Shown here: positions 2,073-48,118 of the stretch, one piece after another
How positions within the stretch are numbered: the first letter of the stretch is position 1
Layout of the letters: each line of letters begins with the position of its first letter
NCBI GenBank assembly: GCA_019634625.1
Contig: JAHCBA010000008.1
Coordinates: 1-64,000 of the forward strand
Origin: Verrucomicrobiia bacterium
Lineage (GTDB): Bacteria > Verrucomicrobiota > Verrucomicrobiia > Limisphaerales > CAIMTB01
Length of the DNA: 64,000 bases
Direction of reading: 5' to 3'
Position numbers and translations under genes: made by a program
Notes under the pieces: model-generated
What the model was told of the DNA's origin: nothing
What the model saw: the letters and a program-made list of their open reading frames with translations, nothing else
Database searches by the model: none

Positions 2073-5000
2073 ATGTTCGCTCCCAGGCCCATCGCCTCAA
2101 TTCCTCCGCCCGCGCCCCGGCACATCGTCGCTGCCCTCCGCGTTGCCCTCGGCGCCGTCCTCATCGCCATGGTCAGCGCACCGGCCCGGACCGCCGCCAC
2201 AGACGCCGCCCCGATCGACTACAACCGCGACATCCGGCCGATCCTCTCCCAGAACTGCTTCATCTGCCACGGCCCCGACGACGCCGAACGCAAGGGCGGC
2301 AACAAGGGCGGGCTGCGCCTCGACACGCTGTCCGGCCAGCGCGAAGACCTCGGCGGCTACGCGGCCGTGCTCCCGGGCCAGCCCGACGAGAGCGAACTCT
2401 ACCTCCGCCTCGTCACGACGCGCCCCCATGACCTCATGCCGCCGCCGGAACTCGGCAAGACCCTCACCGGCGAAGAAATCGCCCGCGTGCGCCGCTGGAT
2501 CGAGGAGGGCGCCTCCTTCTCCCAGCATTGGTCCTACGTAAAGCCCGTCCGCCCGTCCCTGCCCGACGTCGCCAACCCGCTCTGGGTCCGCAACGAAATC
2601 GACCGCTTCATCCTCGCCCGCCTCGATCGCGAAGGTCTCGCCCCCCAACCCGAGGCCGACCGCCCCACCCTCGCCCGCCGCCTGGCCCTCGATCTCACCG
2701 GCCTCCCGCCCACCCCCGACGACGTGGACGAATTCGTCCGCGACACCTCCCCCGATGCCTACGAACGCCTCGTGGACACCTTTCTCGCCAGGTACACCTA
2801 CGGCGAACACTGGGCCCGCCTGTGGCTCGACCTCGCCCGCTACGCGGATTCCGCCGGCTACGCCGACGATCCTCCACGCACGATCTGGGCGTACCGCGAC
2901 TACGTGATCCGCGCCTTCAACCGGAACCTTCCCTTCGACCAGTTCACCCTCGAACAACTCGCCGGCGATCTCCTCCCCGACCCGACCGAGGACCAGATCG
3001 TCGCCACCGCCTTCCATCGCAACACCATGACCAACAGCGAGGGCGGCACCAGCGACGAGGAGTTCCGCAATGTCGCCGTCGTGGACCGCGTCAACACCAC
3101 CTTCGATGTCTGGATGGGCACCTCGATGGCCTGCGCCCAATGCCACACCCACAAGTACGACCCCATCACTCAGAAGGAGTACTTCGAGGCCTTCGCCTTC
3201 TTCAACAACACCGCCGACGCCGATCGCCCCGACGAGGCCCCCGTCCACGAGTTCTTCACCGAACCCCAGCAGCGCCAGCGCGAACGCATCGAACTCGAAT
3301 TCGCCGAACTTAATCGCAAGTTCCGCTCCCCCGACCCGGAATGGATCGACGCCGCCCGCACCTGGGCCCGCACCTTCCCCATCGACCTCCCCTGGCGCTC
3401 CGCCCGTCCCTCCGCCGCCAGCGCCACCTCGACCGCGCCCATGCAGGTTCTCGACGACGACAGCGTCCTGGTCACACCGCCGGACGAACCCGCCAGGGAA
3501 GATGCCTACACGGTCGAACTCCCCTTCGACTCGGCCACCCTCGTCACCGGCCTTCGCCTCGAAGCCCTTCCCCACGAGGCGCTCGACCAGCGCGGCCCCG
3601 GACTCGCCGGCGACTTCCGCCTCCGCACGGTCCGCGCCCGGCTGCTCCCCGTCCCCAACCAGCCCGGCCCCTCCGCCCGCTTCATCCGCATCGAACTCCC
3701 CGGCCGATCCATCCTCCAACTCGCCGAGGTCGAGGTCTTCAGCAAGGGCGACAACCTCGCCCCCCGCGGCACCGCCACCCAAAGCAGCACCTACGGCGAC
3801 GCCACCGCCGATCGCGCCATCGACGGCGACACGACACCGCAGTTCGACCACGGCTCGGTGGCCCATACCCGCGAGGAAAACCGCCCATGGTGGGAAGTCG
3901 ATCTCGGCGCCCCCTACCCCGTCGAACGCATCGTCGTCTGGAACCGGGCCGAGGCCGCCGACCGCCTCAAGGACTTCCGCGTGGTCGCCCTCGATGCCGA
4001 TCGCCGTCCCGTCTGGGCCCAGGGTGGCAACCCCGTGCCCTCCCCCAGCGCCGCCTTCGATCTCACCGGCCCCCGCACCATCGAATTCGCCACCGCCGCC
4101 GCCGACCACAACGCACCCCGGCTCGACGAAGCCCTGGTCGTCGCCGACCGGCCCCGACCGGCCCGCCCCAATCCGCGCCGCGCCTCCGCCGGCGAGAAGG
4201 GCTGGGGCATCGGTGACGCCACCGGCCAGGCCCACGCCCTCACCCTCGTCCCCGCCGCCCCGATCGAGATCCCGCCCGGCGCCACCCTCATCCTGACCCT
4301 CGAACACAAGGCCGATCCGCCGAACCACGCCCTCGGCCGTTTCCGCCTGGGCTTCACCACCGACGCCCGCGTGGCGGAGGTCGCCACCACCCCCGTCCCC
4401 ATCCTCGCCGCCCTTCGCATCCCGGAAGACCGCCGGAACGACGCCCAGCACGATACCCTCGTCGATTACTTCCTCCGCCATGTCTCCCCGGGCTGGCAGA
4501 CGGAACGCGACCGCTGGGCCGAACTCGAACGTCAGCGAGAAGGCATCAAACCGCACACGGTCCCCGTCATGCGCGAACTCGAGGGCGACAAACGCCGCCG
4601 CACCCACGTCCAGCTCCGGGGCGATTTCATGCTCCTCGACGAAGAGGTCTCCGAAGGCGTCCCCGCCGCCTGGCATCCCCTCCCCGAAGACGCCCCGCGC
4701 AACCGCCTCACCCTCGCCCGCTGGCTGGTCAGCGAGGACAACCCCCTCACCGCGCGCGTCCTCGCCAACCGCTACTGGGAACAGATCTTCGGCCACGGCA
4801 TCGTCCGCTCGAGCGAGGAGTTCGGTTCCCAGGGCGAGCCGCCCACCCATCCCGAACTCCTCGACTGGCTCGCCTGCCAGGTCATGGCCGACGGCTGGGA
4901 CCTGAAACAACTCCTTCGCCGTCTCGTCACCAGCGCCACCTACCGCCAGTCCTCACGGGTCACCCCCGAAAACCTCGAGAAGGATCCCGACAATGTCCTC

Positions 5001-35798: not shown

Positions 35799-38700
35799 TC
35801 AATGATCTCGTGCACGGTTGGTGGCGGGAGCGGACACGGGGGCGGGTGGACCCATACGTTCGACCAGGAACCACCGAGCCCAGCGCGTATAGGCGTCGTT
35901 GCCCTTGTCTGTGACAAGGTGATGGCGCAGGCGGGCGATGATGTCGGTCGGGGCCAGGGCAATCTGGCCGTCTGGCATCCAGCGAAACCCAGCGACCGCT
36001 TCGATCAATTCGACGAACCACGGCGGCGGTGGACCGGGCGCCGGGAATACTTCCCAGATTCTGGCTCGTTCACCGCCGAAGGTCAGAAGCCGATTTCCGT
36101 CCGGACTAAAGGAGACGCGCAGAACGCCCGAGGGATGGCGAAGGGGCTCAGTCAAGGGAAAGCCGGACTCGGCACTCCACAGACGGGCGGTGCGATCCAG
36201 CGAACCGGTTGCGACGATGCGTCCGTCGGGGCTGAAGCGCCCGATCCAGGTGGGCTGCGCGTGTTCCATGAGGGGAGTGACAGGATCTCCGGTTGCCGCG
36301 TCCCACACTCGCGCGCTGCCATCCGAAGCGGTCGTCAGGACTCGGCTTCCGTCGGGGCTGAAACAGGAGGATAGAACTTCACCCTCGTGGCGTAGCGGCT
36401 TGGCGATGGGGATTCCGGTGGCGGGATTCCAAATCCGGGCCGTTCGATCGGCAGAGGCGGTGACGAGGTGCCTGCCGTCGGGGCTGAAGGATATACCCCA
36501 GACGATCCCGCGATGACGCAGTGGAGGTCCTAGTTGACGTCCATCTTCAAGGCTCCAGAAGAGGACGGTTCCGCCGGCGTGGGCGGAGGCAAATCGGGCG
36601 CCACGGGGGTCGAAGGCAAGGCTGGTGACTTCGCCGGTGCCTCGACATGGGGCTTCGACTAGTGAGCCCGTGGTGGAATCAGCGATTCGCGCAAAGCCTT
36701 CGCTATCGCCGGTCACGACCCGGCGACCGTCAGGGGAGAACCTGGCGACCATCACATCCGGTGGGACGATCCAATCGACGACGGGCCGGCCGGTCGCCGC
36801 ATCCCAGATTTGGATTCTGCCGTCGAGTCCGGCGGCGAGGATGCGGTCGCCGTTCGGAGAGAATGAGGCGCGCCAGATGTGCGGTTCTTTGAGATGTCGC
36901 GGTAACTCCAGATCGGGACCAATGGATTCGCCGGTGTGCGAGTCGCAGAGGCGGAGCGCGTCGGTACGGACGCTGACGAGGACACACGTTCCAGCGGAAT
37001 TGAACTCGGCTTCGACAGCTCTACCAACGGTGGGTGGTAACATGAGTTGGGATGGCGCTCGCATTCGCAAGTCCCACAGTCGCGCCATCCCATCCTGGGA
37101 TCCGGTCACCATTCGGAATCCGGTGGGGTCGAGGTCGAGGCAGGACACCGGGGCTTGATGGTCGATCGGCTCCAACAGCGGAACGAGGTCATGAGCCTCA
37201 TACACTCGCGCCATGCCGAATTGGCTATAGGAGGCGGCCACCGAGTCGTTGGCACTCACCCGGAATCCGCCCCTGCCTTTCTCGCCTTCGCGGGCGGTGG
37301 CTACGATTTCCAGCGTGTCGGCGTTCCACAGTCTTGGCCAATCAAAATAGGATTCGGAGGCGAATCGGCGGCCATCGGCTGTGAAAGTGATCTTCTCAAT
37401 CTGGGCCGGGCTCGGCACGGAATGGACGGTGGCCTTCGCAGCGGTGCGAAATGGCCAGGCCACCAGTCGCTGCGAATTGAAGACGACGATGAAGATCCGA
37501 TGCCCGTCGGGCGCGAAGGCAAGTCGGTCGGGCAGCTCTGTGAAGTCATTCAGCGTGGCCATGGTTCGGCCTTCGAGGGCATCCAGGATCCATACTTCAC
37601 GATTGAGGAGGATCACTCCTACGACCCCCGCGGCGCGGGACTGATCCGCGTCCCGCACGGCGGCAGGCAAGGTGCGAGGTGCCCCGATCGGTTGGCCGGA
37701 TTCGAGGTCCCAAAGAGTTAGGGTGGCGTCGTCCTCGAAGGCAAAGAGCGTTCGGTCGTCACCCGCGACAATACCTGCCGGGAACTCCCTTCGGCCGGGT
37801 CGTTCGAGGATCAGGTGGCCGGTTTCGGCGTCGAGGACGCGAAGGAAGTGTTCTTTCGATTCGAGGATCAGGCGACGTTCGCCGCAGGCGAACTCGGCCT
37901 TGGTGATTTCGACGGAGTGAGTCCAACGCCGGATTTCGTGACCGGAGGACGTATCCCACAGGCAGGCGATACCGTCGACGGAGGCGGTCAGGACGCGGCT
38001 GGCGTCCGCGTTGAAGCGGACGGACTGCACGGGTCCGTCATGGACGAGGCGGGGCGCCGCCGGGAGGGCGAAGTTGTTCAGGGTCAGCATTGAGAGGACT
38101 CGTGCCGCTGCTTCAGCGTCCTGCGGGTTTTCCCGGAGGACCCGTGCGAACCAGAGGAGGGCGCGATACCGCTGATTGTCGGCGACGAATTCCTCAGCTT
38201 TCTCCCACTCGAGGCGGCGGACGATTTGGGCGAGGCGTTGATTGGCCCGGTCGGTTTCGGTCTTGGCGTGGGCGACGCGGATCGATACCCAGGTTCCGAC
38301 GATGGCGGAGACGGTCAAGGCGAGGGCGAGCAGCAGTCCGAGGCTCGCGACAAGCGGGTTGCGCTGGATCCATTTCCCGGCGCGATAGCCTGCATTGGGG
38401 GGCCGGGCGAGGATGGGTTCACCGCGAAGGTAGCGGCGGATCTCCATGGCGAGCCCGTTGGCCGTTGCGTAGCGAAGGTTTCGATCCTTCTGGAGAGACT
38501 TGAGGACGATCCAGTCGAGGTCGGCTGGGAATGACGTGAAGGAAGGCCGACGGCGGGGAGTATCGGGGTCGCCGGCGAGGCCCCGCAGGCGAAGCGAGGG
38601 TTTGACGGGCTCGCGTTCGCGGATGATCCGGCACATGCCCTCCAGTCCGGCGCGAAGGAGTTCCTGCTGGTCGAACGGCGTGACTCCTGTGAGGAGTTCA

Positions 38701-39611
38701 TAGAGGAGGACGCCGAGGCTGTAGATGTCGCTTCGAGTGTCCACCCCCTTGGCACCGGTCAGGACATGCTCCGGACTGATGTAGGCTGGTGTCCCGATGA
38801 ATTGGTGCAGGGTGGTGGCAGGCTGGGATAGATCGGACAAGGACGGTTGAGTGGCCTTGGCGATGCCAAAATCGATGATTTTTAGGATCGGATGATCGTC
38901 CCCCGTGGACACGAGGATATTTGTCGGTTTAAGGTCTCGGTGGATGATCCCCTTTTGGTGGGCGTGTTGGACGCCGTCACATGCTTGAATGAAGAGATGG
39001 AGGCGTTCACGAATACCCAGGCGATGCCGCGTGGAAAACGTCGTGATCGGCTCGCCGGAGATCAATTCCATGACGAAGAACGGGCGGCCGGAGCGGGTTT
39101 GTCCGGCATCGAAGATCTTGGCGATATTCGGATGATCCATCAGGGCCAGCGTCTGGCGTTCGGTCTCAAAGCGGTTGATGACCCGTTCGGAATCCATCCC
39201 CGACTTGAGAATCTTTACCGCAACGCAGCGTTTGACGGGCCGGTCCTGGTTGGCGAGGTAAACGGTTCCGAAGCCCCCTTCGCCCAGCTTGGTTAGGAGT
39301 CGGTAATGTCCGAGGCAGGCGTGTTCGAGGTCGGGATCGTCGGCGAGTGGAAAGGGTTCCGGGGAGTCGGCCGGGGCGCCAAGGCTGGCGAGCCACGCGA
39401 ACAAGCGAGCCTTGAGGGCGTGTTTCCCAGAGCAGGTTTGATGAATGTATGCCGCCCGATCCCCAGGCGTTGTGATGGCGATGAGTTCGGCCTTCAGGTC
39501 CTCGTCGATTGGCCGCAATCCATAACCGAGCAGGCAGGCGGGGCAGGCGTGGGCGTCCGCAAACGGCGGAAGCGACGAACCGCAAACCGAGCAGAGGGAT
39601 GTGTCTGCCAT
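35799..39611 (-). CDS. Membrane Ser/Thr protein kinase with WD40-repeat domain (STPK-2)
   Basis: A paralogue of STPK-1, 1270 residues from ATG 39611 (MADTSLC). ATG at 39660-39662 in the same frame would add 17 residues, but it directly abuts a strong hairpin, so 39611 is preferred. An N-terminal zinc ribbon (CSVC ... CPAC) is followed by a kinase domain at about 105-400: [50 protein letters not shown] transmembrane segment lies at about 430-450 (ASLGLLLALALTVSAIV), then the same linker type as STPK-1 (LEWEKAEEF ... ALLWFARVL), then WD40 repeats from about 520 to 1230. There is no ECF gene directly upstream; the nearest lies about 5 kb away across the PatG region. Confidence 0.9.
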   Translation of the reverse strand: MADTSLCSVCGSSLPPFADAHACPACLLGYGLRPIDEDLKAELIAITTPGDRAAYIHQTCSGKHALKARLFAWLASLGAPADSPEPFPLADDPDLEHACLGHYRLLTKLGEGGFGTVYLANQDRPVKRCVAVKILKSGMDSERVINRFETERQTLALMDHPNIAKIFDAGQTRSGRPFFVMELISGEPITTFSTRHRLGIRERLHLFIQACDGVQHAHQKGIIHRDLKPTNILVSTGDDHPILKIIDFGIAKATQPSLSDLSQPATTLHQFIGTPAYISPEHVLTGAKGVDTRSDIYSLGVLLYELLTGVTPFDQQELLRAGLEGMCRIIREREPVKPSLRLRGLAGDPDTPRRRPSFTSFPADLDWIVLKSLQKDRNLRYATANGLAMEIRRYLRGEPILARPPNAGYRAGKWIQRNPLVASLGLLLALALTVSAIVGTWVSIRVAHAKTETDRANQRLAQIVRRLEWEKAEEFVADNQRYRALLWFARVLRENPQDAEAAARVLSMLTLNNFALPAAPRLVHDGPVQSVRFNADASRVLTASVDGIACLWDTSSGHEIRRWTHSVEITKAEFACGERRLILESKEHFLRVLDAETGHLILERPGRREFPAGIVAGDDRTLFAFEDDATLTLWDLESGQPIGAPRTLPAAVRDADQSRAAGVVGVILLNREVWILDALEGRTMATLNDFTELPDRLAFAPDGHRIFIVVFNSQRLVAWPFRTAAKATVHSVPSPAQIEKITFTADGRRFASESYFDWPRLWNADTLEIVATAREGEKGRGGFRVSANDSVAASYSQFGMARVYEAHDLVPLLEPIDHQAPVSCLDLDPTGFRMVTGSQDGMARLWDLRMRAPSQLMLPPTVGRAVEAEFNSAGTCVLVSVRTDALRLCDSHTGESIGPDLELPRHLKEPHIWRASFSPNGDRILAAGLDGRIQIWDAATGRPVVDWIVPPDVMVARFSPDGRRVVTGDSEGFARIADSTTGSLVEAPCRGTGEVTSLAFDPRGARFASAHAGGTVLFWSLEDGRQLGPPLRHRGIVWGISFSPDGRHLVTASADRTARIWNPATGIPIAKPLRHEGEVLSSCFSPDGSRVLTTASDGSARVWDAATGDPVTPLMEHAQPTWIGRFSPDGRIVATGSLDRTARLWSAESGFPLTEPLRHPSGVLRVSFSPDGNRLLTFGGERARIWEVFPAPGPPPPWFVELIEAVAGFRWMPDGQIALAPTDIIARLRHHLVTDKGNDAYTRWARWFLVERMGPPAPVSAPATNRARDH

Positions 39612-39662
39612 GGATTGGCAGAACCGTGGAACCACCTGTAGGCGCTTGACGAGAGGATTCAT

Positions 39663-39696
39663 GCCCCCGGCGCGCGCTGTGCGGCGCGCCGGGGGC
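39663..39696 (-). terminator. Strong 13-bp GC hairpin upstream of STPK-2
   Basis: GCCCCCGGCGCGC and GCGCGCCGGGGGC form a perfect 13-bp stem around an 8-nt loop. No T-run follows on either strand. It lies about 77 nt after the stop of the Cys-rich ORF on the minus strand and so may end the protease operon, or attenuate read-through into STPK-2. It could also act on translation because it touches the upstream candidate ATG of STPK-2. Confidence 0.6.
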
Positions 39697-39773
39697 GTGT
39701 CGCTCTACTTCACGAACACCCCGATTCAGGGGACCGCGATGGACAAAGGCGTGCCCAACCGGGGGCGCGGTTG

Positions 39774-40097
39774 TCAGGAACAAAGGGCCTGCAACTGAGG
39801 CGGGATGGGAATATGTGCCTTCCCAGCTTCCTGCACCGCAAAGCAGATGGCCTTTTTGGCCGCGTGGGCGAGGCAATCGTGACACTTGTCGAAGTACCCG
39901 ACGGCCGCCGCCACGCAGGCTGGAAGATCCTCGGGGAATCCCACTGGATCACAAGGGCCGGCGACCAAGGCGGCGCCGCTGACCCCGCATTTGATACTGT
40001 CGATGACACTGCAATGCAGTGGTTGGATGTGGCGCGTCCGGGTCACGGAGCCGGAGGCGTGTCGAAGGATGGGTCTGGCTTGTAGGGGTAGTCTCAT
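39774..40097 (-). CDS. Small Cys-rich protein downstream of the PatG-type protease; candidate substrate
   Basis: A 107-residue ORF with eight cysteines (29, 37, 49, 61, 72, 75, 85, 106), including DKCHDC, and a C-terminus IPIPPQLQALCS. I recognise no family. There is no convincing signal peptide; the N-terminal 25 residues are basic (RPILRHASGSVTRTRH) and the Cys residues fall in the later part, as in a leader-core layout. Its ATG overlaps the stop of a 23-codon ORF (ATGA), so translation is probably coupled. The gene lies between the protease and the hairpin and is likely in the protease operon. A peptide substrate is one reading; a small disulfide- or metal-binding partner is another. The opposite strand is also open but reads less naturally. 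Confidence 0.5.
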   Translation of the reverse strand: MRLPLQARPILRHASGSVTRTRHIQPLHCSVIDSIKCGVSGAALVAGPCDPVGFPEDLPACVAAAVGYFDKCHDCLAHAAKKAICFAVQEAGKAHIPIPPQLQALCS

Positions 40098-40199: not shown

Positions 40200-42155
40200 T
40201 CAGTAAACCTCCCAATGGCGCGGGCGTCCAACCGTGACCGGGACGATGTCGCTGACGTCGATGGTGAAGCGGTGCACGCGACGGGCCTGCTCGAGGCGGC
40301 GCGAGGGATGGAAGAAGGTGAGTTTGACGTCCCAGCAGTCGGACCCCGGGCGGCAGATGACACTTCGCTCCACCTCGATGCAGTCGAGCTTGAAGCCGCC
40401 CTCGATGGCCGAGCGGAAGACCGTTTGAACCTGGAAGGCATTCGTGGCGGCGTAATTCATCGCTCGATCCGCTGAGGTCACCCCCAGGTTCCGAACTTCG
40501 TAATACACGCGCTCGAGAAAACGGGAGATGCCGGAGGTCTGCTCGGCGTGGTGTTCGGCTTCGTCCTTCTTTTTGGGTGCGGGACCGAGGACTGAATCGA
40601 CCAGGGCGCCCGTAGACCAGTTGTACATGCCGCGAACCTCCGGGACGATCGCGGGGACGACCGGTCCGCTCAGAAGGCGCGCGCCGCCTGGCAGCACACC
40701 CGGGATGGACACGCGTTCGATGCCTTCGGCGAGTTGGGCCTTGAGGAATTCGCGCAGGCGCAGGTAGCCCTCGGTGGCGAAGGGACCGGCTGGTTTGACG
40801 GCATAAATCGGTGTGGCGTCCACGTTGAGTGTCCAGATGACACTGGACGCGAGGGCAGGTTCGGCCTCGACTGCCGCGAGCCACTGCCCCGGGTCCTGAA
40901 CGTTCTTGCCGGTCTGCTGGAGCAGTGAATCCCGACGCGCCTCGGAACCGAAGTCGTAACCGATCTGGCCAAGGACATAGACGAGCGCGGGAGCACCGCC
41001 GCACGCGCAACTGCACGCGCAGCCAGCAGGTTGAATTCCAGCAGCCGGTTCCGCCTCGCGCATCGCGTGGGCGGGTGCGGAGGGGGATCCCGGGAGAGTC
41101 CGTGGCCCGGGGGGCTCGGTGTTCACGATTGGGGTGGCGACGGTGTCGCCGTGGGTGGATTCGTTTGCTTCGGACATGACGGGCACCTTTCTGTTGGTTC
41201 GTGCTTGGTTCGATCTGCTTTCCAGAGGTTGAACGCCGTGAAAGCGCAAGTAACGGGTTGGAGGTTCGAATGCTGGCGCGCGGCGCGTTCCGGTGTCGGC
41301 GAGAATTCGGGCGAGGGCGGCGGCGGGATTGAGACGTCCGGCGAACCATCGCCGGCAATCCCGCGCGGTCCGGGGATCACAACGATCGGCGGTTTCGAGG
41401 AGGACGGTGCGGATCGTCGCGGAGTTTGGAGCGAGACCTCGTTGGAGCTGGATGCTCAGGAGCAGTGCGGCGACGCCGGCGACGCGCGGCGCGGCATAAC
41501 TCGAACCGCTGCGCTCGTCGGTTCCACCCCCGGGGAGGGCCCCGCGAACCCTCGTGCCGGGGGCTAGCACACCCTGGACCCGATAGGTGGCGCCCCAGTT
41601 GTTGGAATCGACAGGCTCGCCGTGTTCGTCGGCGGCGCCGACGGCGAGGACGCCGGGGAGGGCGGCCGGGACCTGGTCCTCCGGGTCGCCATCATTACCG
41701 GCGGCGGCGACCACCAGGACACCACGATCGATGGCGCGCCTGATGGCGTTGGCGAGCAGGGGGTCCGCGGTGCGTCTTGAGCCGGGCTCGCCGCCGCTGA
41801 TGTTGATGACGTGGGCGCCGTGTTCCGTGGCGAGATCGACGGCGCGCGCAAGGTCAAGTTGCGAACAGGTGGCTCCTCCCTCGGGTGTCGCGCGGTAGAT
41901 CGGAATGATCAGGCCGCGACAACGAGGCGCGACGCCAGGAACGGGACTTCCCGGCTGACCGAAGATCAAGCTGGCAATGTGGGTGCCGTGATCGGCGGCT
42001 CCGACGTCCGACCCGAGAGTGGTCAGGGCGTTGAGGACAGTGAGGTCGGCTCCCTCGAAACCGGGATGGCGCCGATCGATGGGTCCGTCGAGGACCGCGA
42101 CAACGATGCGGGCGTCTCCGATTGATATACGCCACAAGGGTTCGAGCGCATTCAT
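40200..42155 (-). CDS. PatA/PatG-type S8 (subtilisin) maturation protease with PatG C-terminal domain
   Basis: A 651-residue cytoplasmic protein without signal peptide. The N-terminal S8 protease domain (about 1-290) has the triad Asp23 (VAVLDGPID), His56 (DHGTHIASL) and Ser219 (GSSYAAPRVAG), with Asn154 in AAGNDG. A proline-rich linker carries a Cys cluster, GCACSCACGG (Cys379, 381, 383, 385). Residues about 390-651 match the PatG C-terminal domain: YDFGSEARRDS, NVDATPIYAVKPAGPFA, FLERVYYEVRNLGVTSADRA, RPGSDCWDVKLTFFHP and a VPVTVG ending. In cyanobactin pathways PatA cuts the precursor N-terminally and PatG cuts and macrocyclises. Here both parts sit in one chain without an oxidase domain. 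The gene diverges from the RoxA-like cytochrome. Confidence 0.9.
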   Translation of the reverse strand: MNALEPLWRISIGDARIVVAVLDGPIDRRHPGFEGADLTVLNALTTLGSDVGAADHGTHIASLIFGQPGSPVPGVAPRCRGLIIPIYRATPEGGATCSQLDLARAVDLATEHGAHVINISGGEPGSRRTADPLLANAIRRAIDRGVLVVAAAGNDGDPEDQVPAALPGVLAVGAADEHGEPVDSNNWGATYRVQGVLAPGTRVRGALPGGGTDERSGSSYAAPRVAGVAALLLSIQLQRGLAPNSATIRTVLLETADRCDPRTARDCRRWFAGRLNPAAALARILADTGTRRAPAFEPPTRYLRFHGVQPLESRSNQARTNRKVPVMSEANESTHGDTVATPIVNTEPPGPRTLPGSPSAPAHAMREAEPAAGIQPAGCACSCACGGAPALVYVLGQIGYDFGSEARRDSLLQQTGKNVQDPGQWLAAVEAEPALASSVIWTLNVDATPIYAVKPAGPFATEGYLRLREFLKAQLAEGIERVSIPGVLPGGARLLSGPVVPAIVPEVRGMYNWSTGALVDSVLGPAPKKKDEAEHHAEQTSGISRFLERVYYEVRNLGVTSADRAMNYAATNAFQVQTVFRSAIEGGFKLDCIEVERSVICRPGSDCWDVKLTFFHPSRRLEQARRVHRFTIDVSDIVPVTVGRPRHWEVY

Positions 42156-42183: not shown

Positions 42184-42264
42184 GATTAGTAGGAAGCGGT
42201 GCATTTGTTACACGCGCTCCAGATTCGGGGTGCGATGTAACAGATCGCGGAGGACGCACTAATC
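42184..42264. promoter_or_regulatory. Mirror-image divergent promoter-like elements
   Basis: The bipartite element GTAACA-N15-ACTAATC occurs twice, back to back: on the plus strand at 42237-42264 toward the cytochrome gene, and on the minus strand at 42211-42184 toward the protease. The two inner half-sites are separated by 25 bp. The spacers differ in sequence but are both exactly 15 bp, as expected of two promoters read by the same sigma factor. Read as -35/-10 the spacing is GTAACA-N17-TAATC(A/T). The leftward element lies about 29 bp from the protease ATG, the rightward about 84 bp from the cytochrome ATG. Confidence 0.65.
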
Positions 42265-42347: not shown

Positions 42348-44048
42348 ATGCGCACCCTGATCGAAGACGCACCAGTGTCACGTTGGATTGGTCCGGCCCT
42401 ATTGGTGGCGGCCGCTTTGCCGGGAGGCTGCGCGCATCGGCCGCCGGAGATTACGACAGGGACGCCAGTGCCCGGAGCGATTGGAACGGTGGTGAGCCTC
42501 GATCAGGGCTGGACCGCGGAGGAGCAGGAACTCTTTTGGTTTACCTCGCAAGGGTCGCGTATTGTGCCGTACGCGTGGTTTCTCGCACTGGAACAGGCTC
42601 GGAGTGAGGCGCCCTTTGCATCGGACCAGAACATCGATCGGTATCGTTGGCTGGCGTCGAGGCCGACGCGTCACAACCCGGATGGGCTACCGGTCGGCTT
42701 TGTGAAGGATGTGGATGAACGATCGGGTGAGTCGTGGGTTGGCGTCACCTGCGCGGCTTGTCACACGGGTCAATTGCGGTATCGCGGTGTGGGCATCCGG
42801 ATCGACGGCGGGCCGACACTGGCTGACGCCGAATCATTCTTCTTTGACCTCGCGGCTGCGCTGACAGCAACACAGCGTGAGGACGCAAAGTTCCAGCGTT
42901 TCGCCCGCGCGGTGCAGGGCGGTGGGGGCGATCCGAGTGGGGCAGCCGAACTGCGCGCGAAACTTGAAGCGGTGACGGGGGATATCGTCGCGAGGAATCG
43001 GCGGAATCGTCCGACGCCGGGGGCGGGAATGCCGGGGTACGCGAGGTTGGATGCCTTTGGCAACATCTTCAATGAAGTAGCGGGCCATGACCTCGGAGTG
43101 GCCGACAATGTAAAGCCGCCGGATGCGCCGGTGTCGTACCCGAGCCTGTGGGACACGCCGCAGATGGACCGCGTGCAATGGAACGGGATTGCCCATAACG
43201 GCGGGATCGGCCCGTTGGCTCGCAACATCGGGGAGGCGCTGGGGGCCTTTGCGCGGGTGAACATCCAACCGGAGCGCGGCTTGGAGGGTTACGAATCGTC
43301 CGTGCGCGTGGAGAACATGGGATTGCTCGAGAAATGGCTGGACACCTTGTGGTCGCCCCAGTGGCCGGAGAAGTTTCTGACGGCTATCAATGCTTCCAAG
43401 GCGGCGCGTGGTCGTGGGCACTATGACCGGCATTGCGTAAGCTGCCATGCGCTCCTTGATCGCACCAATCCCTCGCGCCGGATCCAGGTCGTCCTGGTTC
43501 CGATTTCAGAGACGAAGACGGATCCCGGGATGGCCACGGGCGCGCTGCGACAGGTTGCCACCGGGCGACTGAAGGACCGTCCGTCGCTCGTCGTATTGGG
43601 GACGCGGTTCGGGGACAGTGCCTTGGCGGCCGACATCCTCGGCAATGCCGTTGCGGGCACCATTATCGGGCAGCCCGTCCCGGCGTTTGAGGCGGCTCTG
43701 GAGGAGTACATGGCGATTCGGACGGTCTCGACGGTGCCGACACCTGTGTATCGTGCGCGCCCGCTCAATGGCGTCTGGGCGACGGCGCCCTATTTGCACA
43801 ACGGTTCCGTTCCGAATCTCTGGTCACTCCTCCAACGGCCGGAGGAACGCCCTGTTGAATTCCACGTAGGGAATCGGGAGTACGACCCGGTCCACGTGGG
43901 CTATCAGACGACACCGGACGCTGACGGTGTCTCGTCGGTGTTCGATACACGGCGCCCCGGCAATGCGAACACGGGACACGCCTGGGGAACCACGGAACTG
44001 AGTGACGAAGAGAAGTGGGAACTGGTCGAGTTTCTCAAGTCGCTTTGA
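42348..44048 (+). CDS. RoxA-like di-haem c-type cytochrome, predicted lipoprotein
   Basis: A 566-residue exported protein starting at ATG 42348. The N-terminal hydrophobic segment WIGPALLVAAALPGGC ends at Cys28 in a weak lipobox, so it is probably a lipoprotein. Two haem motifs are present: CAACH in VGVTCAACHTGQL and CVSCH in HYDRHCVSCHALL. The pattern ELFWFTSQGSRIVPYAWFLA, then LPVGFVKD and PLNGVWATAPYLHNGSVP, matches the RoxA/cytochrome c peroxidase-like family, whose best known member is the rubber oxygenase RoxA. Oxidase or peroxidase activity on an organic substrate is therefore possible. Codons end mostly in G or T, unlike plus-strand genes elsewhere in the window. Confidence 0.85.
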   Translation: MRTLIEDAPVSRWIGPALLVAAALPGGCAHRPPEITTGTPVPGAIGTVVSLDQGWTAEEQELFWFTSQGSRIVPYAWFLALEQARSEAPFASDQNIDRYRWLASRPTRHNPDGLPVGFVKDVDERSGESWVGVTCAACHTGQLRYRGVGIRIDGGPTLADAESFFFDLAAALTATQREDAKFQRFARAVQGGGGDPSGAAELRAKLEAVTGDIVARNRRNRPTPGAGMPGYARLDAFGNIFNEVAGHDLGVADNVKPPDAPVSYPSLWDTPQMDRVQWNGIAHNGGIGPLARNIGEALGAFARVNIQPERGLEGYESSVRVENMGLLEKWLDTLWSPQWPEKFLTAINASKAARGRGHYDRHCVSCHALLDRTNPSRRIQVVLVPISETKTDPGMATGALRQVATGRLKDRPSLVVLGTRFGDSALAADILGNAVAGTIIGQPVPAFEAALEEYMAIRTVSTVPTPVYRARPLNGVWATAPYLHNGSVPNLWSLLQRPEERPVEFHVGNREYDPVHVGYQTTPDADGVSSVFDTRRPGNANTGHAWGTTELSDEEKWELVEFLKSL

Positions 44049-44100: not shown

Positions 44101-44835
44101 TTATTGGCGCAGTACCTGGATGAGGAACTGGAGTTCGCCGTCGACTTCGGCGGGATCGGCCACAGTCTGAGCCACGGTTTCGAGGAGGATACTCCGATAG
44201 CGTTGACGGAGGCGATGGAGCATGACGCGAAGGTTGACCTGCGTGAGGCCGAACCGTTGGGCGAGGTCAGGGTAGGGAACGGCGGTGACGTCGCCCCACA
44301 GGTGCGGTTCGAGTTGCTCAAACAGCCCGAGACGATCGGAGGCGGCCCATTCCTCCCGGAGGCGGCGAAAGACGACGTTCAACAAGGACCGTGCCCACTG
44401 GCGGTTGTAAGCAACGTCGGGTGGCAGGGATTCGCTTGCCGGGCCGGCAGCTTGCTCGAGCAGCGCAACGTCCAAGGTCACCCAGCGTTGATCACCGCCG
44501 CGTTTCCTGGCTTGGCTCCGGCGCCATTCGTTGCGGAGATAGTTCTCGAAGCATGAGACGAGGAAAGAGCGAAAGCGGCCGCGTTCGGGATCCGCCCGCG
44601 ACAGGTAATCGCCCGCGAGAAAGGCGGCGAGGAAAGCCTGAGTCTGGTCCTCGGCCTCGGGGGGCGGCAGGCCGCGCCTGCGCGCGAAGACGTAGAGGGG
44701 CCCCCAATAAGTCTGGCAAAGCTCCCGCAGCGCGAATTCGGAGGCTGAAGTCGAAGTCGTAGCATCGAGGATCAGGCTCCAATGAGTCGTGGCAACCCCC
44801 CCCGCGCCTTGGTTTCCCTGGTCGCCTGCCTGCAT
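44101..44835 (-). CDS. ECF-type RNA polymerase sigma factor (kinase-linked group), second copy
   Basis: A 244-residue sigma factor starting at ATG 44835. It shares the kinase-linked ECF pattern with the first copy: ATTHWSLILDA, region 2 (LCQTYWGPLYVFARRRGLPPPEAEDQTQAFLAAFL, then RGRFRSFLVSCFENYLRNEWRR) and region 4 (VPYPDLAQRFGLTQVNLRVMLHRLRQRYRSIL). It converges on the cytochrome gene with about 50 bp between stops. No anti-sigma gene is adjacent. It could drive the divergent PatG/cytochrome promoters and be controlled by STPK-2; that is inference from position. Confidence 0.9.
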   Translation of the reverse strand: MQAGDQGNQGAGGVATTHWSLILDATTSTSASEFALRELCQTYWGPLYVFARRRGLPPPEAEDQTQAFLAAFLAGDYLSRADPERGRFRSFLVSCFENYLRNEWRRSQARKRGGDQRWVTLDVALLEQAAGPASESLPPDVAYNRQWARSLLNVVFRRLREEWAASDRLGLFEQLEPHLWGDVTAVPYPDLAQRFGLTQVNLRVMLHRLRQRYRSILLETVAQTVADPAEVDGELQFLIQVLRQ

Positions 44836-44880
44836 CCGAAGGAATCTCCAATGGCGGGCTGGCGATGGTCAAGGCGCGCT

Positions 44881-45863
44881 TTACCCCCACTCTTCTGTAT
44901 CAGCGCGTATGAAAAGAGCGATGATCCGGTGTTCCTCCGAAAAGGTGTCCTCATCCCACGCTTCGAGAGTGACGGTGACCGGATCGGCCCCGGGATCGAC
45001 CTTGGTGACGAAGCGACTTTCGTGGTGCGGTGCCACGGCGAGGATTCGAATTGAGCGGTGACCGTTGCGCGGGTTTCGCCATCGAGGTGCCCTTGAGGCC
45101 AGGGGATGTTCCGGCTTCGCGTCACTTCTTGCGCGGAGCCGATTTCCGCATCGATGGAGATCCCGGCAAATATCACCGGGGCATTGGTTCCGAGCCGACC
45201 ACGGAGGTCCTCCAGGCGGGTGAGCATCTCGATGCTTCGTTCCGACCACGCGGCCCAGAAGGCGAGCAGGACGGGACGACCGCGTTGATCGGAGAGGTCG
45301 AGACGTTTTCCGTCGAGGGTTGGCAGGGACAGTTCCACAGGGGAGGACCTCGTGGATTCCACGGACTCGGCCCAGGTCATCTCCAACAGGCCAAGGTCGA
45401 TCGGGCCACGGCCGTCTGGAATACCGACATCGCGAGTCAGCGAGCCGAGAAGGGGCTGACTCCGCATCCAGCGTTCCTGTTGGGTTCGGGGAGGCTGCGT
45501 CACGCGGATCTGAAGTTCATACTCGCCCGGAGCGATGTCATCCACGCGGAAGCTGCCGTCCGTTGGGCGCATCTCCATGGTGCCGGAGATTCGATCGGTC
45601 GAGGGATACGACGAGGGGACCGTTGGGGTCGGGGTCGGAATCGGAATCGGGATCGACGCCGCAGGCTCCCTTTCCATCCCATCCACCCTTGCCGCGCCGT
45701 GCCCCGAGCTATCGACACGACGTGCAATCCATCCCGGAAGGGCATGGCGGAAGGTGACAGCCCGATCACGATCACGATCACGAGTAAGAGGCCTGCTGCA
45801 AGAGGCTGAGAGGTGACCCTTCCCACCAACGCGCGTCGCTCCAATAGCCCGTTGCGGCTTCAT
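44881..45863 (-). pseudogene. Broken redoxin gene with carboxypeptidase-regulatory-like part
   Basis: From about 45590 the minus strand encodes TMEMRPTDGSFRVDDIAPGEYELQI, a carboxypeptidase regulatory-like segment, then a thioredoxin-like piece (LDGKRLDLSDQRGRPVLLAFWAAWSERSIEMLTRLEDL, GISIDAEIG). The CxxC of TlpA-type proteins is replaced by WSERS. Near 45050 the sensible reading moves to another frame that ends at 44881 (HESRFVTKVDPGADPVTVTLEAWDE); the original frame runs into the ECF sigma gene region as Arg/Ser-rich nonsense. The 5' part is low-complexity repeat (IPIPTPTPT). It is probably the tail of a larger secreted protein. Confidence 0.5.
45565..45655. repeat. Second copy of the (GGGGTC/GGAATC) repeat with shared flank
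   Basis: On the minus strand this block reads TCCCCTCGTCGTATCCCTCG and ACCGATCG, then ATGGAGATGCGCCC, matching the block at 9701-9772 (TCCCCTCGACGTTTCCCTCC, ACCGATCG, TTGGAGATGCGCCC). Both copies adjoin hexanucleotide arrays of the GGGGTC/GGAATC type. The similarity over about 70 bp plus the adjoining arrays suggests a dispersed repeat family, not chance. Confidence 0.5.
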
Positions 45864-47137: not shown

Positions 47138-48118
47138 ATGAGAACCCCACGCATCACCGCCGATCCCTCTACGCACGCGACGTACCACTGCATGTCCCGA
47201 GTCGCCGGCCGCCTCCCTCTCCTCGACGATTCCGCCAAGCACAAGCTGCTCAACATCCTCCATCACCTCGCCCGCTTCTGCGACATCGACATCATCACCT
47301 TCTGCATGATGTCCAACCACTTCCATCTCCTCATCCGCGTCCCACCCAAACCCCTCGAGGACTCCATCCCGGACGACGTCATCCTCGCCAAACTCGAGGA
47401 CTTCTACGGGCCCAAGGCCACCCTCCCCACCCTGGCCCGCGCCGCCCTCAACAAGGGTCAACCCATCCCAGACGACATCCGCCAGGCCGTCCTCTCCCGC
47501 ATCGCCGACCTCTCCGTCTTCCTCCAGGAGTTCAAGCAGCGTTTCTCCCGCTGGTACAACCGCCGTCACGACCGCACCGGCTACCTCTGGGGCGAACGCT
47601 TCCGCAGTGTTCTGGTGGAAGACTGCCCCAGCACCCTGCGCGCCATCGCCGCCTACATCGACCTCAACCCCGTCCGCGCCGGCCTGGTCAACGATCCCAA
47701 GGACTACCGCTTCTGCGGCTACGCCGCCGCCCTCACCGGCGACAAGGTCATCCGCCGCGGAATCATGGGCTTTCTGGGCGCAACCGACTGGAGCGCGGCG
47801 TCAGCAGAATATCGCCTGGCGCTTTATGTGATTGGCGGGACGTCGGGACGGAGCGACAAGCGGGTGCTGGAACCGGAGGCGATCCGGGCGGAACTGGCGA
47901 GGGGCGGTCAACTACCGCTGGGTCAGATCCTTCGGTTGCGGATCCGGCACATGACGGACGGGGTGTTCCTGGGCTCGAAGGAGTTCGTGAACCAGATGTG
48001 GGAGCGGCACCGGGACAAGTTCGGCAAGCGGCGCAAGAGCGGCGCACGTACCATTCGAGGGGCTCCGATCCCGGGGCTTACCGTGTTGCGCGATCTGCAA
48101 GTGGATGCAGTGGGGTAA
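47138..48118 (+). CDS. REP-associated tyrosine transposase (RAYT), IS200/IS605 Y1-transposase superfamily
   Basis: A 326-residue single-strand DNA transposase-like protein. The HUH motif is SNHFHLLIRVP with His61 and His63. The RAYT-type core follows: FSRWYNRRHDRTGYLWGERF, then RSVLVED and LRAIAAYIDLNPVRAGLV. The C-terminal third is an extra helical/DNA-binding region (EAIRAELARGGQLPLGQILRLR) seen in verrucomicrobial members. RAYTs in gamma-proteobacteria mobilise REP palindromes and usually exist as single genes without flanking IS ends, as here. The solo R4 end upstream and full copies elsewhere in the window suggest it acts on that repeat. It appears intact. Confidence 0.9.
   Translation: MRTPRITADPSTHATYHCMSRVAGRLPLLDDSAKHKLLNILHHLARFCDIDIITFCMMSNHFHLLIRVPPKPLEDSIPDDVILAKLEDFYGPKATLPTLARAALNKGQPIPDDIRQAVLSRIADLSVFLQEFKQRFSRWYNRRHDRTGYLWGERFRSVLVEDCPSTLRAIAAYIDLNPVRAGLVNDPKDYRFCGYAAALTGDKVIRRGIMGFLGATDWSAASAEYRLALYVIGGTSGRSDKRVLEPEAIRAELARGGQLPLGQILRLRIRHMTDGVFLGSKEFVNQMWERHRDKFGKRRKSGARTIRGAPIPGLTVLRDLQVDAVG

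Follow-up and report, generated by a model that had tools for sequence, protein, structure and literature searches.

The window analysed here, by which we mean the whole 64,000-nt stretch of DNA, contains an intergenic region between two divergently oriented genes, one encoding a PatG-like protease and the other a di-haem cytochrome, and within this region the same bipartite element occurs once on each strand. The features of the locus, in order of position, are as follows.

35799–39662, minus strand: Ser/Thr kinase with WD40 repeats, the next gene past the precursor; it falls outside the clade of kinases that follow the nearest relatives of the ECF sigma factor.
39663–39696, no strand assigned: strong G+C hairpin, with no T run, separating the precursor and kinase genes (z −2.90 for 39640–39775).
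39774–40097, minus strand: 107-aa cysteine-rich precursor-like protein with the N-terminus MRLPLQARPILR; the ORF after the protease.
40200–42155, minus strand: PatA/PatG-family subtilase of 651 aa (S8 + PatG_D + PatG_C by Pfam; TIGR03895 620 bits, cut-off 421).
42184–42190, minus strand: ACTAATC, −10-like box of the candidate protease-facing promoter, 28 nt from the protease ATG at 42155; class GTAAC-N17-[GC]TA.
42206–42212, minus strand: TGTAACA, −35-like box of the candidate protease-facing promoter; the same box occurs in the ECF-to-kinase gaps of loci L166 and L167.
42236–42242, plus strand: TGTAACA, −35-like box of the candidate cytochrome-facing promoter; exact motif match.
42258–42264, plus strand: ACTAATC, −10-like box of the candidate cytochrome-facing promoter, 83 nt from the cytochrome ATG at 42348.
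42348–44048, plus strand: di-haem cytochrome c peroxidase-like lipoprotein of 566 aa (NF040606 598 bits, cut-off 150; CAACH and CVSCH).
44101–44835, minus strand: ECF sigma factor, candidate reader of both promoters, with VNLRV as its sigma-4 helix and an acidic EAED in region 2.2.

The element reads TGTAACA-N15-ACTAATC, with one exact copy per strand at 42212–42184 (minus) and 42236–42264 (plus). An earlier note on this DNA had described a bipartite GTAACA-N15-ACTAATC, once on each strand, with spacers equal in length and unlike in sequence. We recover that form at 42211–42184 (minus) and 42237–42264 (plus) with zero mismatches, the boxes shared by both copies (TGTAACA and ACTAATC) being one base longer in total than those first described. 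Between the two 15-bp spacers 3 of 15 positions are identical, and because this is the background level and the flanks are without continuous similarity, the two copies do not represent a recent inverted duplication. The elements also face the two divergent genes, as had been claimed, each lying upstream of an ATG at the distance listed above, and 23 bp separate their −35 boxes. In the register of the family consensus described below both window sites read GTAAC-N17-CTA, whereas in the TGTAAC-N-ACTA register their spacer is 16. The pentamer GTAAC occurs 19 times in the window, and only these two sites have [GC]TA after a spacer of 17 or 20.

The product of the ECF gene at 44101–44835 has both sigma-2 and sigma-4 regions, with scores slightly below the curated cut-off for Pfam Sigma70_r2 (21.4 bits, E 2e-4) and for TIGR02937 (40.6 bits, E 2e-10). 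At least 28 related ECF genes, this one included, were matched in its own genome. The closest orthologue, 59% identical in the search and 56% over the alignment of the two, is encoded on contig C142 of a genome of the same genus (G002, 8.8 Mb; locus L166), and the next-closest relative, a paralogue, is on own-genome contig C2 (L167, 53% identity). Of 55 ECFs examined, only these three carry the VNLRV sigma-4 helix. In the nearest relatives a Ser/Thr kinase with WD40 repeats is encoded directly downstream of the ECF gene. The gene at 44101 has no adjacent Ser/Thr kinase; the convergent cytochrome gene comes next, and the nearest kinase is 4.4 kb away and belongs to a different clade. The earlier note's designation of this ECF, 2 kb from the elements, as an orphan is apt in this sense. 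We considered the kinase at 35799 as a displaced partner and rejected it, as it is 55–59% identical to its best relatives and about 30–40% identical to the kinases encoded behind the nearest relatives of this ECF. Inspection by eye recognised no anti-sigma gene beside the nearest relatives of this ECF. A redoxin-like ORF (AhpC/TSA) at 44772–45863 (minus) overlaps the start of the ECF gene.

We searched five genomes of the genus with the window motif, allowing up to two mismatches, and obtained 13 rows. Four matches are in G002, and two of these fall on C142, the 14.9-kb contig that carries the closest ECF orthologue and that had been named as the orthologue contig before any motif match there was known. 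By our own arithmetic, random placement would put two of four matches on this contig with a probability of ~2e-5. The reversed pattern gave eight matches in G002, so that it is the location of the forward matches, and not their number, that stands out. The first match on C142 (TGTAAC-N16-ACTACTC) lies between the ECF stop codon and the kinase, 64 nt before the kinase start, and the second (TGTAAC-N16-ACTATTC) comes after the kinase gene, 93 nt upstream of the ATG with which the following gene starts. The third G002 match (contig C68, locus L196) is 156 nt before the ATG of a gene whose product, as we read the sequence, is probably secreted; on the other side of the match is an ORF that we read as STAND-WD40-like. 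The fourth is inside an ORF. Eight of the 13 rows, neither window sites nor consensus sites, were discarded as chance, and the seven of these that were checked all lie inside long ORFs; the matches at L169 and L177 are likewise within long ORFs, but in antisense to the genes of the locus concerned.

At the C2 paralogue locus (L167), TGTAAC-N19-ACTACTC stands between the ECF gene and the kinase ORF, which starts 26 nt further on; its spacer exceeds that of the window sites by 3 bp. A second TGTAAC is found directly past the L167 kinase (position 3909, minus strand), without a clear matching −10 box. Over the 509 kb of ECF loci assembled for counting, TGTAAC-N12-22-ACTA is present six times (twice in the window, twice at L166, once at L167 and once at L196) against three for the reversed control, and the longer form with ACTANTC six times against none. 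Motif and helix go together, in that among the 55 ECFs only the VNLRV trio have TGTAAC-N-ACTA in their loci. The proposal in the earlier note that one sigma factor, probably the nearby ECF, uses both promoters gains support from this shared motif and from the placement of half of the G002 matches on the orthologue contig. We consider it likely that both elements are core promoters of a single ECF, most likely the one at 44101–44835, and that they would drive the peroxidase gene and the protease-peptide unit.

Because the genome holds at least 28 related ECF genes, it is only by inference that the elements are assigned to the one at 44101, and promoters of the same class could be read by a different sigma factor, be it the C2 VNLRV paralogue, another related ECF, or several of them. 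The paralogue (53% identical) shares the VNLRV helix and has these boxes ahead of its kinase gene, and GTAAC is common to the family as a whole. However, the site of the paralogue has a spacer of 19 in the register in which the window sites have 16, and it is the sites near the closest orthologue of the window ECF that match the window spacing; moreover, of the candidates the window ECF is the one close by, and it is without the usual kinase target. We regard this alternative as unlikely, and continue to favour the ECF at 44101 as the reader of both elements.

A related signal is seen across the family. We scanned the first 120 nt past the stop codon of 55 ECF genes, a set that covers 24 of the 28 related genes in the own genome and roughly half of the 40 in G002. 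In the sense orientation GTAAC is present in 21 of the 55 stretches, compared with 3.7 in shuffles; it is found in two in antisense and upstream of the ECF gene in one of 52. The full element, GTAAC-N17/N20-[GC]TA, follows the stop codon in 13 of 55 cases against 0.15 in shuffles, with 0 of 55 in antisense and 0 of 52 upstream of the ECF genes, and the two parts occur at none of the spacings 16, 18 and 19 and once at 21. The spacer classes were derived from these 55 genes and then applied unchanged to a later set of 21 ECF genes (20 regions), where the element was found in 3 of 21, compared with 0.046 in shuffles, and in no antisense or upstream position. We take the element to be a frequent and not a universal feature of the family, because most gaps are without it (34 of the 55 have no GTAAC in the stretch scanned, and the full element is absent from 42 of the 55 and from 18 of the later 21), because the shuffle controls retain single-base composition only, and because the ECF genes are mutually related. 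Two exact spacer classes, 17 and 20, thus differing by a 3-bp step, exist within one ECF family (for example at L167, L179, L204, L210, L218 and L220). The literature that we searched gave no account of GTAAC-N17/N20-[GC]TA for kinase-linked ECFs, which does not in itself show that there is none. The ECF gene at 44101 is itself neither preceded nor followed by such an element. Autoregulation of the ECF genes was considered and rejected: among 21 upstream regions the best match reached at most 10 of 14 positions, and dyad counts were not above those of Markov controls.

The family-wide pattern bears on a second alternative, in which the boxes are not −35 and −10 elements and the two copies are half-operators of a dimeric or tetrameric regulator that would bridge, or compete at, a divergent promoter. 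The window element does form an interrupted palindrome, and TGTNACA is by itself nearly palindromic. Yet where the gaps between ECF and kinase genes contain the element, it is a lone copy, oriented as the following gene is (0 of 55 in antisense) and fixed in its spacing at 17 or 20, and among the neighbouring proteins that were scanned we recognised no regulator belonging to the usual DNA-binding classes. We therefore hold this arrangement to be quite improbable, and retain the view that the elements are promoters of the ECF class.

The motif was then considered at the scale of genomes. The earlier note had called for a genome scan for GTAACA-N15-ACTAATC. Such a scan returns the window pair and no copies upstream of other genes, the two window copies being the only exact matches to TGTAACA-N15-ACTAATC in the 6.74-Mb own genome. 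None of the 96 other genomes searched contains the exact motif pair. With up to two mismatches there are two further matches in the own genome, against five for the reversed control pattern, and TGTAAC-N15-18-CTAAT finds the window pair only (control, two). A broad regulon in the own genome was accordingly set aside, since both additional matches are within long ORFs. None of the relatives searched retains the protease or the divergent arrangement of protease and cytochrome genes, so that there is no orthologous intergenic region with which to compare the boxes. The idea of a conserved protease-cytochrome pair was dropped, as neither the cytochrome nor this ECF is encoded nearby at any of 62 loci with a protease relative, and so was that of the motif upstream of protease relatives, where the best scores in 61 upstream stretches were about those of control stretches. 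Matches to the cytochrome are present in 6 of 96 relatives besides the own genome, and the best motif score at the loci scanned there was 10 of 14 positions. Between 39600 and 44900 we found no sigma-70-type promoter.

For a pattern of 14 bases fixed in advance, two occurrences in 81 bp would be extremely unlikely. The pattern was recognised after the fact, and we therefore assessed chance over any boxes, with spacers of 10–20, by means of shuffles. For inverted pairs with 6/7 boxes the 64-kb window has four, compared with a shuffle mean of 2.2, and at least four were seen in 11 of 60 shuffles. For 7/7 boxes it has two against 0.22, the second pair being within a C-rich stretch. When only the intergenic region of the two elements was shuffled, a pair arose in 30 of 30,000 trials with 6/7 boxes and in 6 of 30,000 with 7/7 boxes. 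The inverted pair is unusual at its location and moderately beyond chance post hoc, and without the ECF evidence the sequence of the pair is not decisive. The view that a palindrome arose by chance in a short intergenic stretch richer in A+T has in its favour that such pairs are ordinary for DNA of this size and that the genome has no further copies of the motif, but given the 6 of 30,000 intergenic shuffles and the occurrence of this motif beside both the ECF orthologue and the paralogue we judge it the least probable of the alternatives, and very improbable.

The gene to the right of the elements encodes a member of the NF040606 family, as indicated by its score above the cut-off and its two CXXCH motifs, and its lipobox was read by eye. 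Plasmid pRL9b3 of Rhizobium leguminosarum (L065) presents an independent instance of this cytochrome family next to proteases: there, an S8/S53 peptidase and a serine protease come after a di-haem cytochrome relative. Further to the right in the window, an ORF at 47138–48118 (plus) resembles a REP-associated (Y1) transposase, as recognised by eye.

To the left, the protease covers positions 1–605 of the 606 of TIGR03895, and so belongs to the family over the whole model; it is 48–50% identical to two cyanobacterial relatives. PatG_C is found in 1 of 320 genomes of the order (the own genome only) and in 2 of 387 of the phylum (the own genome and G464). In G464, one contig (C255; L058–L060) has three PatG_C matches within 3.4 kb. 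A homologue of the 107-aa peptide, 42% identical, adjoins the protease of Flavilitoribacter (L123), and the window peptide has LPxQxxPxxR at its start. Small ORFs with LPxQxxP[VIL]x[RK] near their start follow protease relatives at 37 of 62 loci, from many phyla, and 54 of the 55 leader-bearing ORFs lie no more than 2.5 kb downstream on the same strand as the protease relative. Two scrambled patterns and a reversed one gave 1, 0 and 0 ORFs, and a looser leader pattern brings extra candidates at several of the remaining loci. The leader model TIGR03678 matches the peptides of three of nine relatives weakly, under the cut-off (E 0.05–0.16), and gives no match to the window peptide, which therefore falls outside the cyanobactin precursor family as that model defines it. 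No cyclodehydratase was recognised among the proteins scanned beside the protease. We infer that the small ORFs are precursor peptides matured by the PatG-like protease, and the cysteine-rich ORFs with an LPxQxxP leader and their PatG-like proteases are probably peptide-maturation systems outside the cyanobactins. The literature searched contained no account of a PatG-like protease paired with such peptides. The hairpin at 39663–39696 may mark the end of the protease-precursor unit, separating it from the kinase gene at 35799.

Taken together, these analyses suggest how the locus might work. The −35 box TGTAAC(A) and the −10 box (A)CTAATC would constitute the core promoter class of a family of kinase-linked ECFs. 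The relatives' ECFs would use this element to transcribe the kinase gene behind them and, in one case, the gene past the kinase. For the window ECF, which has no adjacent kinase gene, the element would instead head the cytochrome gene and the protease-precursor unit. One active sigma factor could then direct transcription rightward into the gene for the di-haem peroxidase lipoprotein and leftward into those for the protease and the cysteine-rich peptide. The peroxidase and protease genes would thus probably be switched on together by the neighbouring ECF. With 23 bp between the −35 boxes, two polymerases might hinder each other. The signal could be a redox one, because both the peroxidase gene and the redoxin-like ORF lie beside the ECF gene. 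A wider reading, which we offer tentatively and place just short of probable, is that kinase-linked ECFs, which number in the tens in each genome of this genus, share a GTAAC-17/20-GTA/CTA code with sub-specificity following the sigma-4 helix, and that the window ECF lost its kinase and was rewired by two facing promoters to a newly acquired PatG-like unit and the peroxidase.

Kinase-linked ECFs are among the least understood, and a signature shared by the gaps behind them offers a way of predicting the genes they control. If the common promoter code holds true, the targets of many uncharacterised ECF-kinase systems would be predictable from sequence. The window would then serve as a small, two-promoter case of control by a kinase-linked ECF. 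Its left-hand target represents an association, so far little noticed, between PatG-like proteases and cysteine-rich peptides with a common leader.

A review (PMC8999054) lists ECF43, 59, 61, 62, 217 and 283 as kinase-linked groups, and states that those other than ECF43 still await characterisation. The nearest relatives of the ECF at 44101 are likewise followed by a kinase gene, whereas the window ECF has none adjacent. According to the same source, ECF43 has its acidic region 2.2 residues replaced and depends on phospho-Thr, while other groups keep acidic residues; the ECF at 44101 keeps an acidic EAED in region 2.2 and in this differs from ECF43. With regard to promoters, PMC8103513 describes AAC in the −35 box as a well-established hallmark of ECF promoters, and CGT as typical of the −10 box, this −10 form being a hallmark that derives from a small set of studied ECFs. 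The window elements resemble ECF (group 4) promoters in being bipartite, in having AAC in the −35 box (TGTAAC in both copies), in boxes 17/20 bp apart and in a short regulon, and the fixed box distance (17 or 20) and sense orientation to the gene are those of an ECF-type promoter. They depart from the typical −10 CGT given there, with ACTAATC in the window and CTANTC or GTA in the family, and they differ from group 4 promoters in having two exact spacer classes (17 and 20) in one family and in that the full element stands upstream of 0 of 52 ECF genes. Cyanobactin clusters have, according to a review (PMC4663559), been identified only in cyanobacteria. Unlike those systems, the window unit has no precursor family above cut-off and a cysteine-rich, variable core, and it lies outside cyanobacteria; like them, it combines a full-length TIGR03895 protease with a neighbouring LPxQxxPxxR ORF whose relatives are weakly TIGR03678-like.
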